Of a DNA stretch of 64,000 bases, positions 13,681 through 59,567 are shown piece by piece. The stretch comes from Planctomycetota bacterium (lineage in GTDB: Bacteria > Planctomycetota > Planctomycetia > Pirellulales > Pirellulaceae), in NCBI GenBank assembly GCA_016872725.1, contig VGZC01000003.1, forward strand, positions 1-64,000, in the 5' to 3' direction. Position 1 is the first letter of the stretch. Each line of letters begins with the position of its first letter. Under the pieces are notes generated by a model. It was not told the DNA's origin. It saw only the letters and a program-made list of their open reading frames with translations, and made no database searches. The translations under genes and the position numbers were made by a program.

Positions 13681-14808
13681 TCAATAGACGCCGACCGTGG
13701 TCTGCGCGGCGACTCCGCGGAATGGCCGCACACCGCGGATGCCGTCCCACGGATATCGCTCGTACGGCGGTTCCCGTTCGCCTTCGTCCCGCTCAAGGAA
13801 CCCGGGCACGAAAAACTCGCGCGTGAGCGTGGTCAGCTTGACGCGGCCCGTCGCGCCGTACCCAACGCATGATCGGCGGTCGTCGAAATCAACGACTTCG
13901 ATGACCGCGCGCGGTTGCGGCGCGTAGTAGGCGATCTTGTAGGCGTCCTCGGCTCGGACCGGCTTGCCGCACGCCAACCCCATGAGCGTGTTGCCGTACG
14001 TCGGCGTCATGTAGACTCCACCGACTTCCGGGGGACCGCCGAGCAGTTCCTCGACGGCGTACCGCGTCCATTGTGGAGTGAACTCGGTGCCGCCCGAAAA
14101 GATGCCGGTGATGCCGATCTCCGGGATCGATGTTCCCCGATCTTCCAGCTCGATGGCGAGCGATTCAAGCAGTTTGGGTGTGGCGAACATGCACTGGATG
14201 GCATGCCCGGCCGTTAAGATCGTCACCGCCTGTTCGATGACGTGCTTCTTGTAGGCTTCGAGATGCTCCATCCACCCCTTCTTGATCAGCTTGATGACCC
14301 AGCGCGGATCGAGATCAACGCAGAAGCAGATGCCACCCCGATGTTGGCAAAGGTGCTCGACCGCAAGCCGAAGCCGGCGCGGCCCGCTCGGCCCCAGCAT
14401 CAGCCAGTTCGCGCCTTTCGGAAAATACGTTTCGGGCAATGTCTCGCTGAACAGCTCGTAGTCGATTCGATGGTCGTCGATCACAACGCGACTCTTCGGG
14501 ATTCCCGTCGTTCCGCCCGTTTCGAACACGAAGACCGGCTTGCCCGACAGACCTTTCGGTACCCATCGGCGAACGGGACCGCCGCGCAGCCATTCATCCT
14601 CGAAGGGGGGGAGCTTCCTCAGGTCGTCGAAACCGCGTATTTGGGTCAGCGGGTCGAAACCGAATTCGCGCTTCTTTTCGAGCCAGAACGGGCATCCCGT
14701 CGATTCATGGAAGTGCCACGCGACCATTTCCACGGTATGAGCATCGAGCCGCTCTCGGGCCTGTTGGATGGCCGAATCCAGATCAAGCACGGTGGTTGAG
14801 GACTCCAT
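13681..14808 (-). CDS. LuxE/PaaK-like acyl- or aryl-activating enzyme
   Basis: A 375-residue adenylate-forming enzyme of the LuxE/phenylacetate-CoA-ligase type. The phosphate-binding loop is FETGGTTGIPKS near residues 94-105; downstream lie SGGTEF near 241 and a tyrosine-rich MTPTYGNTLMGL near 268. It is shorter than full-length CoA ligases because the C-terminal subdomain is small, as in LuxE acyl-protein synthetases. It would activate a carboxylic acid and hand it to the reductase encoded next. It is the first gene of the minus-strand operon, so the promoter should lie in 14809-15040. The substrate may be 4-hydroxybenzoate or a related acid (inference). Confidence 0.82.
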   Translation of the reverse strand: MESSTTVLDLDSAIQQARERLDAHTVEMVAWHFHESTGCPFWLEKKREFGFDPLTQIRGFDDLRKLPPFEDEWLRGGPVRRWVPKGLSGKPVFVFETGGTTGIPKSRVVIDDHRIDYELFSETLPETYFPKGANWLMLGPSGPRRLRLAVEHLCQHRGGICFCVDLDPRWVIKLIKKGWMEHLEAYKKHVIEQAVTILTAGHAIQCMFATPKLLESLAIELEDRGTSIPEIGITGIFSGGTEFTPQWTRYAVEELLGGPPEVGGVYMTPTYGNTLMGLACGKPVRAEDAYKIAYYAPQPRAVIEVVDFDDRRSCVGYGATGRVKLTTLTREFFVPGFLERDEGEREPPYERYPWDGIRGVRPFRGVAAQTTVGVY

Positions 14809-15048
14809 GATGTCTTTTCCGATCGGAGAACGGATCTTGGATCGTGCTCGCGATTGAGTTCCGCGCCGCTGCGTCTTGGTTCTGAATTCCGGGCGGGACG
14901 GCCACGATTACGGCGGTGAGGTGAATGATCGCTCATCCGGCCAAGTTCCCAGCGGGCGACAGGCGGTTCAACCGTGATCGGCGCACCCGATTAACCCAAG
15001 TTCGGCGACAATGTCGAGGTGCACATCAAGGCAATCAAGATCAAGACA

Positions 15049-15152
15049 AATCAAGACAGGACACCCCAAAATCAAGACAGGACACCCAATCGAGCATCAA
15101 GACCGAAAGCGAATCCGGGTGTCCGATCTTGTGGCGCGGGTGTCCGATCTTG
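15049..15152. repeat. Paired tandem repeats forming a large inverted repeat
   Basis: The 18-base unit AATCAAGACAGGACACCC occurs at 15049-15066 and again at 15070-15087. On the other arm GGGTGTCCGATCTTG occurs at 15117-15131 and 15138-15152. Both arms therefore repeat with a 21-base period, and the right units are near-complements of the left units (AAGACAGGACACCC against GGGTGTCCGATCTT, two mismatches). The shared pieces GCGAATCCGGGTGTCC and AATCAAGACAGGAC recur at 59516-59567. It could be a folded RNA or DNA element, a protein-binding site, or a small non-autonomous mobile repeat. Confidence 0.8.
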
Positions 15153-15272
15153 TGCCGAATGGGGGTAGATGGGTATATGGGACGAGCCCATCCGAACCAT
15201 TCGCCACGCCGGGCACCCGGCGCACGGTTCGGCGGCCCACGGTTCGAGGGCTCGATTGCGGGCCGGATGAGG

Positions 15273-15302
15273 TTGACACTCGGGGCACGTGTTCCGTATC
15301 CT
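15273..15302 (+). promoter_or_regulatory. Candidate sigma-70-type promoter
   Basis: TTGACA at 15273-15278 is a perfect -35 box. After an 18-base spacer, TATCCT at 15297-15302 agrees with the -10 consensus in four of six positions. It lies about 150 bases before the hydrolase start at 15449. It rests on box matches only. Confidence 0.35.
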
Positions 15303-15448
15303 CCCGCGCGTCCTTTTCGCGAGAGGGAGCCGGCAGGGGGCATACGTCGCTTCCGCGGGATCATTGCGTTGGCGCGGCGGTCCGCGGGGGAGCCTGCCGG
15401 CCGAATCGCCGCGAGCGTCGATGCAGCATGGATGGAAGGCCGACCTGG

Positions 15449-17524
15449 ATGCGCCCCCGTTCGCACGCCGCGCCCATTCGCTTCTCCCGATTCGTCCAGA
15501 TCGGGCTCGGTGTGGCCTTGGCGGGCTGCGCGAACCAGGGGTACCTGATCGAACGGAACTCGCCGTTCAATCCGCTGGCGGGGCCGTTGAAGCTCGTGTC
15601 GCGGGAAGGCCCGCAACCGTCCGCCCGCTCGCAGCAGATCCTCCGTCGGTACGATCTGCTTGGCCGACACGGAAACGACGCGGGGCCCGTTCTGGCCCGT
15701 TTGCAAGAGGACCTGCGGCACGAGCCCACGCACGAGAAGGTATATGCGTTCGCGGAACTCGCGTATCTTGGAGGCCTTCGTGCCCAGCACGAGGGGGATG
15801 CCAAGCAGGCGCTCGACTATTACGCGGCGGCCGTGTCGCACGCGTATCTGTACCTGTTCGATCGGCGATTCGAGTCGGCCCGCAGCGCGTATGACCCGGT
15901 GTTCCGGCAGGCGTGCGACCTCTACAACACGTCGCTCGAATCGGCCCTTCGCCTCTATTGCCCCGACGGCCGGCTACGCCCGGGCCGGCGACATCCGATC
16001 ACGATCGGCAACCGGCGCATCGACGTGGATGTCGTATTCCAGGGCGCCTGGAAGGAGGACGAGATCGAGCGGCTCGAATTCGTTTCGGACTTCCAGGTCG
16101 AGAACCTGTCGAACCGCCACCATACCTACGGACTTGGCGTGCCGCTCATCGCCATCCGATCGTCGCGCGAGGCGCGGGACCCGGCGGACGGCTACTATCC
16201 CCCGGGACTCAGCTTCGCGGTCACGGCCTTTCTGCGAGTCCTTCCGGACACGACCGAAGGCCGGACATCCTGCGCGCTGGAGATCACCGACCCGGTCGTT
16301 TCGCGGTTCACCATGGTCGACGCGCGCCCTGTTCCCCTCGAAACGGACCTCACGACGCCCCTGGCCTACTTTCTGGACACACCCGAGTTCAACCGAAAAG
16401 CGAACATCGCGACGCTTGGACTGCTCAATCCGAATCGGACCGAACGCGATTCGGGTCTGTTCATGGTCGAGCCGTATCAGCCGGGAAAGGTCCCCGTTCT
16501 GTTTGTGCACGGGCTTTGGTCGAGTCCGATGACCTGGATGGAGATGTTCAATGATCTGAGGAGTTTTCCGGAGATCCGCGAGCGGTGTCAATTCTGGTTC
16601 TATCTCTATCCGACAGGGCAGCCGTTTTGGGTGAGCGCCGCGCAGTTGCGCGAGGATCTCGCGAACGTGAGGCGATCGATTGATCCCGGCGGGGCGGCGC
16701 CCGCGCTCGATCGGATGGTGCTTGTCGCGCACAGCATGGGTGGACTCGTCTCGCGGCTTCAGACGATCGAAAGCGGCGACGATTTCTGGAAGATCGTCAG
16801 CGATCGGCCGTTCAAGGACCTGCGGGCCGACGACGCATCGCGCGAGGCGCTCGCCAAGACCTATTTCTTCGAGCCGAATCCGTCGATCCGGCACGTCTTG
16901 ACGATCGGCACGCCGCATCGCGGCAGCAGCTACGCGAACGATTACACACGGTGGCTCGGGCGGCGGTTGATTCGCCTTCCGACGATGCTCGTCAGCCGAA
17001 ATCAGCGGCTGATCCTGACCAACCCCGGTCTGTTCCGCGACCCGGAACTGCTCACGATCAATACGGGCATCGACTCCTTGGCTCCCGACTCCCCGATGCT
17101 CCCCGCCATCTTGAGCGCGAACCAAGCGCCGTGGGTCCAGTGCCACAATATCGTCGGCGTCTTACCGGACGACGGGATTGCAAAACGCATCGCATCGGAA
17201 TCGGAGAGCGACGGTGTCGTGACCGTCGCGAGCGCGCATCTCGACGGCGTGGCATCGGAGGTTGTCGTCCATGCGGACCACACGACCATCCACCAACACC
17301 CCCGCGCAATCCTGGAAGTGCGCCGCGTTCTGCTCGACAATCTCCGCGAGTTCGCTCGGGAGTCGGGCTCGCCGCCCGCGCCGATTTCGGCGCGCATCGG
17401 CATTTCCGACGGAGCCGAGACGCCGACGGCGCGCGAACGGCCGCTCGCCCGCCCCGCGCCGACCGACATCGGCCCACTCGAAGAACTCGCTCCGCCACCG
17501 CCAAACCTGCGTTCGATCGAATAG
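15449..17524 (+). CDS. Exported lipoprotein alpha/beta hydrolase (lipase-like)
   Basis: About 691 residues. The N-terminus has arginines, a hydrophobic stretch and the lipobox LAGC (residues about 20-27 from the chosen ATG), so it is predicted to be a lipoprotein. Residues about 30-330 are an unrecognised domain. The alpha/beta hydrolase part starts at VLFVHGLWSSPMTW near 350; the nucleophile serine is in VAHSMGG near 426-432, followed by GTPHRGS near 487, and a late His-rich HADHTTIHQH supplies the candidate catalytic histidine near 610. It resembles PGAP1-like and triacylglycerol lipases. A proline-rich tail ends the protein. ATG at 15428 is an alternative start. The gene converges on csrA across two hairpins. 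Confidence 0.85.
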   Translation: MRPRSHAAPIRFSRFVQIGLGVALAGCANQGYLIERNSPFNPLAGPLKLVSREGPQPSARSQQILRRYDLLGRHGNDAGPVLARLQEDLRHEPTHEKVYAFAELAYLGGLRAQHEGDAKQALDYYAAAVSHAYLYLFDRRFESARSAYDPVFRQACDLYNTSLESALRLYCPDGRLRPGRRHPITIGNRRIDVDVVFQGAWKEDEIERLEFVSDFQVENLSNRHHTYGLGVPLIAIRSSREARDPADGYYPPGLSFAVTAFLRVLPDTTEGRTSCALEITDPVVSRFTMVDARPVPLETDLTTPLAYFLDTPEFNRKANIATLGLLNPNRTERDSGLFMVEPYQPGKVPVLFVHGLWSSPMTWMEMFNDLRSFPEIRERCQFWFYLYPTGQPFWVSAAQLREDLANVRRSIDPGGAAPALDRMVLVAHSMGGLVSRLQTIESGDDFWKIVSDRPFKDLRADDASREALAKTYFFEPNPSIRHVLTIGTPHRGSSYANDYTRWLGRRLIRLPTMLVSRNQRLILTNPGLFRDPELLTINTGIDSLAPDSPMLPAILSANQAPWVQCHNIVGVLPDDGIAKRIASESESDGVVTVASAHLDGVASEVVVHADHTTIHQHPRAILEVRRVLLDNLREFARESGSPPAPISARIGISDGAETPTARERPLARPAPTDIGPLEELAPPPPNLRSIE

Positions 17525-26049: not shown

Positions 26050-27231
26050 ATGTCCATCACGACACTAGCTCGATCCTTGGTCCTCGCGTTGGTGGCTGCC
26101 GTCCTCGTCGCTCCCGGCGCACGCGCCCAGTCCGGTCCGGAATTCACGCCGTTTATCGATCCATTGGCGTTCAATCCGGACTATCAGTTCTTCGCTCCGG
26201 CCGAGCTCGGCGATTTCGGAAACGTGGACGAGCCGAATACGGGGTGGTTTGGGACGTACGACCGGATGTACATCTATGTGACCCGCGGCGAGCTCGAGGA
26301 TTCGTCCACCGACGGCGATTTCACCTGGGGCAATCGGTTCGACATCGGATACATGACCGAGGAGGACCGGGGTTGGCTGGTTTCGGTGATGCATGTCGGC
26401 GGCCCAAACGTCTACGACGTCCTCCGCCATCCGCGGATTAACCGCGACAACACCGACGACCGGAATACGACGGGCGGCGGCGGCGGCGGCGGCGGTGGTG
26501 GTGGCGGCGGCGGCGGCGGCACGACGGTCGCGGCCCCCGTCTTTCCGCAACAGGACCGCAACTACGATCCGAGCGGGGCTCGGGATTACGACATCCGCCA
26601 CAGCCTGAACGTCGCGTCGCTCTCCAACTTCGAACTCAACCACGTCTGGAGGCTCGATCAGCTCCATCGGGGCGGCACGCTCGAGCCGTTCGCCGGGTTC
26701 CGATACATCAAGTTCAAGGACCACACGCAACATGACGCGTACACGCGGTTCGACGACACGGGCGTGACGAATCCATTTCCGAACACGACCGACGAGATCG
26801 AGGAGATCACGAACAACCTGACTTGGTGGGACAACCAGATGGTGGGCGGCCAAATCGGCGTGCGGTGGGCCCAGCAAAAGAGCCGCTGGCTCTTGTCGAG
26901 CGACTTGCGGGCGTTCGCGGCGCAGAACTTCCAGAACTTCAGTTCGCGCCAGGACGTGTACCAGATCCTCTATGCCGGCGTCGGCACCGACACGGACGTC
27001 GACAGCGAGAAGTACTTCCGCACGGGCACCGCGTCGCACAGTTCCGAATTCGTCTTCGGAGCCGATGTGCGTGCGGAAGCCGCGTTCGAACTGACACGGG
27101 ACATTTCGCTTCGGACGGGCCTCCAGTTCCTGCATTTCCCGCGCGGCATCGCGCGAGGAAACCTCGCGGCGTTCAACGAACAGGACCTCACGCTGCTCGG
27201 CGGCACGATCGGCCTGACCATCAACCGGTAG
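26050..27231 (+). CDS. BBP7-like outer-membrane beta-barrel protein
   Basis: A 393-residue exported protein. The signal peptide covers residues 1-26 (ARSLVLALVAAVLVAPGARAQ). The mature part has alternating aromatic and polar residues typical of beta-strands, the segments SLNVASLSNFELNHVWR and PFAGFRYIKFKDH, and ends in GGTIGLTINR, an outer-membrane-like terminal strand. This layout matches the BBP7-type barrel proteins common in planctomycetes. Residues about 142-157 are sixteen glycines in a row, encoded by GGC/GGT codons, probably an exposed loop. Start ATG is clear from the signal peptide. Function is probably structural or a porin. Confidence 0.78.
   Translation: MSITTLARSLVLALVAAVLVAPGARAQSGPEFTPFIDPLAFNPDYQFFAPAELGDFGNVDEPNTGWFGTYDRMYIYVTRGELEDSSTDGDFTWGNRFDIGYMTEEDRGWLVSVMHVGGPNVYDVLRHPRINRDNTDDRNTTGGGGGGGGGGGGGGGGTTVAAPVFPQQDRNYDPSGARDYDIRHSLNVASLSNFELNHVWRLDQLHRGGTLEPFAGFRYIKFKDHTQHDAYTRFDDTGVTNPFPNTTDEIEEITNNLTWWDNQMVGGQIGVRWAQQKSRWLLSSDLRAFAAQNFQNFSSRQDVYQILYAGVGTDTDVDSEKYFRTGTASHSSEFVFGADVRAEAAFELTRDISLRTGLQFLHFPRGIARGNLAAFNEQDLTLLGGTIGLTINR
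26473..26520 (+). repeat. GGC/GGT trinucleotide repeat (16 codons) inside the barrel gene
   Basis: Forty-eight bases of GGC with four GGT interruptions encode 16 glycines inside the outer-membrane barrel gene. Changes in repeat number would be in frame, altering loop length only. Confidence 0.95.
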
Positions 27232-59360: not shown

Positions 59361-59409
59361 AACAGGACACCCAGGTTCGGGTGGGACGGGGAAGTCGGGT
59401 GTCCTGTTT
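59361..59409. repeat. Inverted repeat hairpin (dispersed family)
   Basis: AACAGGACACCC at 59361-59372 is the exact complement of GGGTGTCCTGTT at 59397-59408. The stem is 12 bases with a loop of about 24. The same core (AGGACACCC/GGGTGTCC) is at 15049-15152. Confidence 0.85.
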
Positions 59410-59515: not shown

Positions 59516-59567
59516 AATCAAGACAGGACGCCCAGGTTCGGAACCCGAAGGCGAATCCGGGTGTCCT
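59516..59567. repeat. Second inverted repeat of the same family
   Basis: AGAATCAAGACAGGAC from 59514 and GCGAATCCGGGTGTCC from 59551 repeat phrases found at 15049-15124. The two arms are near-complementary (AGGACGCCC against GGGTGTCC). The direct phrase ACGCCCAGGTTCGG is also close to ACACCCAGGTTCGG in the 59361 copy. Confidence 0.8.

Follow-up and report, generated by a model that had tools for sequence, protein, structure and literature searches.

Palindromes of a Planctomycetota genome resemble REP-like half-sites of a subclass 2.3 transposase and appear to grow by duplication from a preferred start

The window, by which we mean the whole 64,000-nucleotide stretch of Pirellulaceae DNA analysed here, displays an imperfect palindrome (15048–15157) in which each arm is built of two 21-bp tandem units. 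The left arm repeats AAATCAAGACAGGACACCC, exact over 19 nt, with a step of 21 from 15048 to 15069; its two units (+ strand, 15048–15068 and 15069–15089) carry the core GGACACCC at 15059–15066 and 15080–15087, and the second has a duplication junction 11 nt 5' of its core. The right arm (- strand) consists of 21-nt units at 15116–15136 and 15137–15157, again with a step of 21 and with 20/21 identity, which carry the inverted core GGGTGTCC at 15117–15124 and 15138–15145; the junction of the first lies 12 nt 5' of the core on the - strand. The 21-base double-tandem step that an earlier note on this DNA had described for both arms is thereby confirmed. Pairing between the arms reaches 87% over 15 nt and 72% over 36 nt, while the predicted RNA fold (-48.5 kcal/mol, z -4.2) was equalled by 0/200 shuffles and the DNA fold (z -2.8) by 2/200. 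Shorter partial left-side copies, absent from the first description, are also present: units opening with ATCAAG start at 15025, 15034, 15040, 15050, 15071 and 15096 and extend over differing lengths until the next one opens. The first three of these are short truncated left-arm copies (15025–15049, + strand); the last, ATCAAGAC, is a further truncated copy within the loop (15090–15115, + strand), where the family-typical GCGAATCC precedes the right core.

Two more family members lie in the window, a hairpin ACAGGACACCC ... GGGTGTCCTGT at 59362–59407 and, at 59516–59567, AATCAAGACAGGACGCCC with a degenerate core ... GCGAATCCGGGTGTCC. The phrase said to be common to 59551–59566 is indeed exact, with GCGAATCCGGGTGTCC found both there and at 15109–15124. 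Overall the window holds nine copies of GGACACCC when 2.56 are expected (maximum of 6 in 100 shuffles). It also displays, at 26473–26520, exact 18-nt direct repeats with steps of 27 and 30 bp. The array is neighboured by a 375-aa reading frame without Pfam match (13681–14808, - strand) and by an alpha/beta-hydrolase frame on the + strand, for which a promoter-like match is seen at 15273–15302. The mechanical + frame opens at 15011, within the array region, and the hydrolase gene presumably starts after the promoter-like match, which would make the array intergenic.

In order to place the locus in its genome (95.77% complete), we counted the family across all contigs, as the earlier note had suggested. 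The 16-mer GCGAATCCGGGTGTCC is found without mismatch 11 times, on 6 contigs, and is therefore not a two-locus curiosity, and the pattern GGACACCC-N10-40-GGGTGTCC occurs 21 times, compared with 0 for the reversed pattern. The complex palindrome is thus real and multi-copy, and not confined to two loci lacking conserved structure, the outcome that the note had named as a refutation. Single cores number 206 (97 reversed), and 31 same-orientation core pairs lie 12–42 bp apart (0 reversed). The half-sites follow a consensus close to TCGAAACAGGACACCCA and are arranged as palindromic pairs. Only this locus has pairs at 21 bp (2/31), while the others in the genome are 23–41 bp apart; the spacings were rechecked for 28/31 pairs, and the remaining three, on other contigs, have a spacing of 28 bp. 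In one gammaproteobacterial MAG the commonest step is 20 bp (11/39). The proposal that 21 bp reflects two helical turns is consequently not borne out, even if proteins may bind cooperatively at some loci.

Several palindrome copies sit at contig ends. A stretch of 157–190 bp with a palindrome array is common to the starts of contigs C5, C6 and C70 and the end of C40; it probably belongs to a longer repeat at which the assembly was interrupted. A longer composite unit, with two hairpins and a shared spacer around GATCGCTCCGCGATC, was observed at C3:59361–59700 and C25:69486–69730. The palindrome pattern was found in 4/60 genomes searched, this one included, the other three having one palindrome each, and among 296 genomes sampled from the order of this bacterium the stricter form is present in this genome only. 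A literature search with the core letters gave only unrelated papers among the matches listed.

We then consider which transposase accompanies the family. Contig C5 carries an 88-aa transposase relic (313–576) between palindromes at 239–276 and 582–620. The relic has no HUH motif and is similar to longer proteins of relatives, whose open frames are mostly 350–450 aa; a match to it was found in 24/60 genomes searched, this one included. No intact partner gene with HUH and Tyr was detected in the own genome, which may be incomplete. Two strong IS200-like TnpA proteins encoded there were rejected as partners because the palindromes are not nearby, none lying within 1.5 kb, and one of the two has a single lone core ~440 bp away. 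Elsewhere in this genome, a Y1_Tnp-like match lies inside long tandem peptide-like repeats (ASERRIVARLSEACYAKENSNREEL; C32:41660–44896).

The link to a transposase is found in other genomes. A scan of the species collection for a strict palindrome gave 34 stretches, among them some from gammaproteobacterial MAGs with arrays very similar to those of the own genome; two of these stretches (L047 and L067) also show two forward cores followed by two inverted ones at ~20 bp, as at the locus. When a transposase from one of these MAGs was used as a query (L066/L096), it was found in 4/14 source genomes, that is in four of the five MAGs with arrays and in 0/9 of the others, the genomes having been grouped by eye; in the fifth MAG with arrays no transposase was detected. 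The Elusimicrobiales, Exiguobacterium, Lachnospiraceae and other stretches, mostly single hairpins, were set aside by eye, with a transposase match in 0/9 of those tested. All five strong matches have a core within ~210 bp upstream, and at L096, L098 and L100, whose contigs are long enough, cores lie downstream too. Among four weak matches, three have no core in the locus and L104 has a lone core ~370 bp away; one genome (G063) has the transposase but no single-core excess (55 versus 67 reversed).

The L096 transposase is a 327 aa protein with, by alignment, H73, W162-E163, Y183 and TS at 203–204, and it displays the motifs NHYH (NHxH), W-E, YVDLNP and TS with a His-to-Tyr distance of 110. Its sequence matches the hallmarks of TnpAY1 subclass 2.3 (~325 aa, NHYH, W-E, YVDLNP, TS, His-Tyr 110; Quentin et al. 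2018, PMC6006769), an assignment based on published motif values rather than on the profiles of those authors. The closest NCBIfam model is the REP-associated tyrosine transposase, below cut-off, while Pfam Y1_Tnp is just above cut-off in 1/3 homologues; a structure prediction from two sequences had a mean pLDDT of 42 and was set aside.

Other palindromes were seen during this survey. Two loci of a gammaproteobacterial MAG (L102 and L103) carry other Y1-transposase-like genes with the TIRYT-like palindromic words GGGTCAGAGT and GGGGACAGAT nearby, and no tandem duplications were found there. The Elusimicrobiales MAG has a separate multi-copy palindrome (L048, L050, L054, L057, L059, L065), of which the two copies read, L054 and L059, have CTTACAGGACACCCCAGGCGGGAGCCTGGGGTGTCCTGTAAG in common and no stutters that can be seen; this MAG gave no match to the subclass 2.3 transposase. 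One viral contig displays a single symmetric hairpin.

In order to extend the comparison to homologues of the transposase, we searched their flanks for an enriched 8-mer, a locus passing when its count was reached by at most 1/100 shuffles. Six of the 72 homologue loci were removed for their short flanks; of the 66 tested, 31 pass and 35 fail. As six places had been fetched twice, this corresponds to 60 distinct places (L164 being counted separately despite an identical middle), with an enriched word at 27/60 and none at 33/60. The word stands on both sides of the gene in 21 of the 27 places and on one side in 6, inverted order not being required, and at a few loci, L139, L140 and L172 among them, the word that passes is simply a local tandem repeat. 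The words vary by lineage (GGACAGGC, GGGGACAT, GGGGACAG, CAGACACC, GGTGGCAC, CGGTGCCA and others). As for plasmid copies, 1/8 passes (Photobacterium) and 7/8 have no enriched word.

To follow how the arrays are built, we listed exact tandem duplications of 8–60 nt around each core. They were present in 27/75 core contexts of the own genome versus 1/225 background positions, and in 65/255 versus 2/765 in the gammaproteobacterial MAGs. The background is the better control since control cores near arrays, with 0 events, had only 0–13 contexts each. The duplications have a preferred start: the junction falls 8–13 nt 5' of the core in 15/24 distinct events of the own genome (3.9 expected) and in 34/43 of the MAGs (6.1 expected), values as high being reached in 0/200,000 simulations for either set. 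The events are not fully independent, and when look-alikes were merged 13–15/20 and 31–32/40, respectively, remained at 8–13; 9/24 and 9/43 fall outside this range. Bases are conserved from 7–8 nt 5' of the core onwards, a point slightly inward of the duplication start. The ends vary up to +32, many of them falling between 0 and +4 nt relative to the core. Copies with the preferred start that span a whole core start at 8–13.5 and end at +10 to +31.5, and the whole core is absent from 13/15 preferred-start copies in the own genome and 23/34 in the MAGs (36/49 in total), copies as short as 6–9 nt being present. The 21-bp step at the locus is explained by such tandem duplication, not by a general helical period, because the duplicated stretch runs from ~10 nt ahead of the 8-nt core to a point just past it.

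A similar start is seen with other words. In relatives, 18/20 events start at 7–13 (3.05 expected), a range set after the events had been seen and with one of the 18 intervals too wide to be informative; 15/20 are at 8–13. Single-contig genomes (G006, G019, G028, G036) are among those with such events, and two TIRYT-like loci gave 0 duplication events.

Arrays also differ by whole units between related genomes. In MAGs G061 and G062, which are 91–99.8% identical at matching arrays, we observed seven gains or losses of 9, 11, 19, 27, 29, 29 and 36 bp. A definite junction could be assigned in 6/7, always 8–15 nt 5' of the core; the phase of the 27-bp unit is ambiguous. There are 3 mismatches between one 29-bp unit and its neighbour, and a further site looks like one start with two different ends. 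These counts come from 11 locus pairs, of which one gave no match, three were gapless and six were aligned for indels, while the L184/L188 pair was left out for its runs of N; a terminal gap of 23 bp was disregarded, and the tally excludes a 6-bp difference noted in L186/L190.

Taken together, we regard the locus as a member of a family of small palindromes, spread over the genome, that accompanies a single-strand-cutting transposase. The reading that we consider probable is that these are REP-like half-sites of a subclass 2.3 transposase, in arrays that grow by fixed-start duplications. Judged from sequence, the half-sites are taken to be the cognate sites of an HUH single-tyrosine transposase of the TnpAY1 subclass 2.3 type, and the palindromes seem to grow by repeated copying of one short stretch from a fixed start. 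A site-specific nick, a variable extension and resealing would leave copies whose start is fixed and whose end varies, and such a reaction may be what the transposase carries out. The enzyme would nick single-stranded DNA ~8–13 nt 5' of the core; the free 3' end would be extended along the template, often halting at the hairpin base; and the tyrosine-held 5' end would then be resealed to the lengthened 3' end. Each round would add one truncated extra copy, and the double tandem of 21 bp would represent two events, one per arm. TnpAREP is described as making a 3'-OH and a 5' phosphotyrosine and as able to pass the 5' end to another 3'-OH, in a cleavage and strand-transfer assay (PMC8266576); the extension between cleavage and strand transfer is the step that we infer. 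More tentatively, and with somewhat less confidence than doubt, subclass 2.3 Y1 transposases might run this nick-extend-reseal reaction on their own sites. Truncated tandem copies would then be added from a single fixed cut point, turning lone hairpins into polymorphic arrays, as an enzyme-driven pathway of tandem duplication and a route to REP-like families.

The main rival is replication slippage, in which the polymerase would stall at the stem base and the new strand slip back and re-anneal with no transposase needed, the palindromes being perhaps old REP-like repeats. The clustering of tandem duplications at palindromes agrees with it, as do the many copies that halt 0 to +4 nt into the core, the lack of an intact partner transposase in the own genome and microhomology slightly above chance, with none at 4/15 and 13/34 junctions versus ~56% by chance. 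Yet under slippage the start should vary according to microhomology, which is mostly 0–2 nt here, while the observed start is near-constant with ends reaching +32, and other genomes show a similar offset at core words that differ from this one. Because of this near-constant start slippage falls short, though the stem-base stops and the microhomology excess fit, and we hold it to be an unlikely, if serious, account.

Side-by-side insertion of whole hairpin elements at a preferred site would also give a preferred left boundary, in the way that IS200/IS605 elements insert beside a fixed tetranucleotide, and some events do copy a complete core. It is already disfavoured by the copies without a complete core and by those of 6–9 nt; most preferred-start copies are thus not transposed or inserted hairpins, and we find this very improbable. 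Equally hard to credit is a regulatory or structural array, with a protein on two sites 21 bp apart per arm upstream of the hydrolase promoter. The step on both arms, the promoter-like match and the position between divergent genes would suit such a role, while other copies in the own genome lack this step, several copies lie at contig ends and half-sites cluster at transposase genes elsewhere. Readings as a terminator, a known RNA family or a GTAG REP were tested and rejected, with no intrinsic terminator (stem and T run, loops of 3–8) and no Rfam match at gathering score in 14800–15500, and no GTAG in the position profile ahead of the core.

The preferred reading, half-sites lengthened by their transposase, can be set against known systems. 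IS200/IS605 elements carry their own short TnpA between subterminal hairpins, an arrangement that was not found at the two strong IS200-like proteins of the own genome. Di Nocera et al. (2013, PMC3733652) describe TIRtrons and TIRYTs as Y1 HUH transposase genes between inverted repeats that do not resemble GTAG REPs and that in some cases make up multi-copy families, as dimers or clusters. Inverted repeats flanking a Y1 gene are likewise found at L096, L098, L100 and the C5 relic. The TIRYT consensus GGGGWSAS given there (PMC3733652) resembles several words of relatives (GGGGACAG, GGGGACAC), some of which fit it, while the core GGACACCC does not. In addition, 20/26 described TIRYTs have been placed in subclass 2.1 (Quentin et al. 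2018, PMC6006769), unlike the long subclass 2.3 type seen here. REPs and REPINs, short palindromes thought to be dispersed in trans by the Y1 transposase RAYT, include tandem clusters with flanking DNA (Bertels and Rainey 2011, PMC3116915); the canonical 5' GT[AG]G foot is absent from the present family. Truncated duplications with a fixed start were not found in the descriptions of PMC3733652 and PMC3116915 drawn upon here, and such copying would show concretely how a single hairpin can become a repeat family, a transition that the REP papers, in those same parts, do not account for. The closest likeness is to subclass 2.3 itself, which shares with the transposase here several diverged copies per genome (PMC6006769). 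According to the account of the subclass in Quentin et al. 2018 (PMC6006769) on which we rely, no REP-like sequences are identifiable at its genes, whereas 27/60 homologue places have an enriched flanking word here and 33/60 have none, so that the statement is true for part of the subclass, not all. The family would thus supply cognate sites for some transposases of a subclass that has been described as lacking them, with the likely cut position, ~8–13 nt 5' of the half-site, read from natural sequence. With this prediction a simple laboratory assay could test binding, cleavage and array growth, and fixed-start copying suggests a testable way in which such transposases edit DNA.
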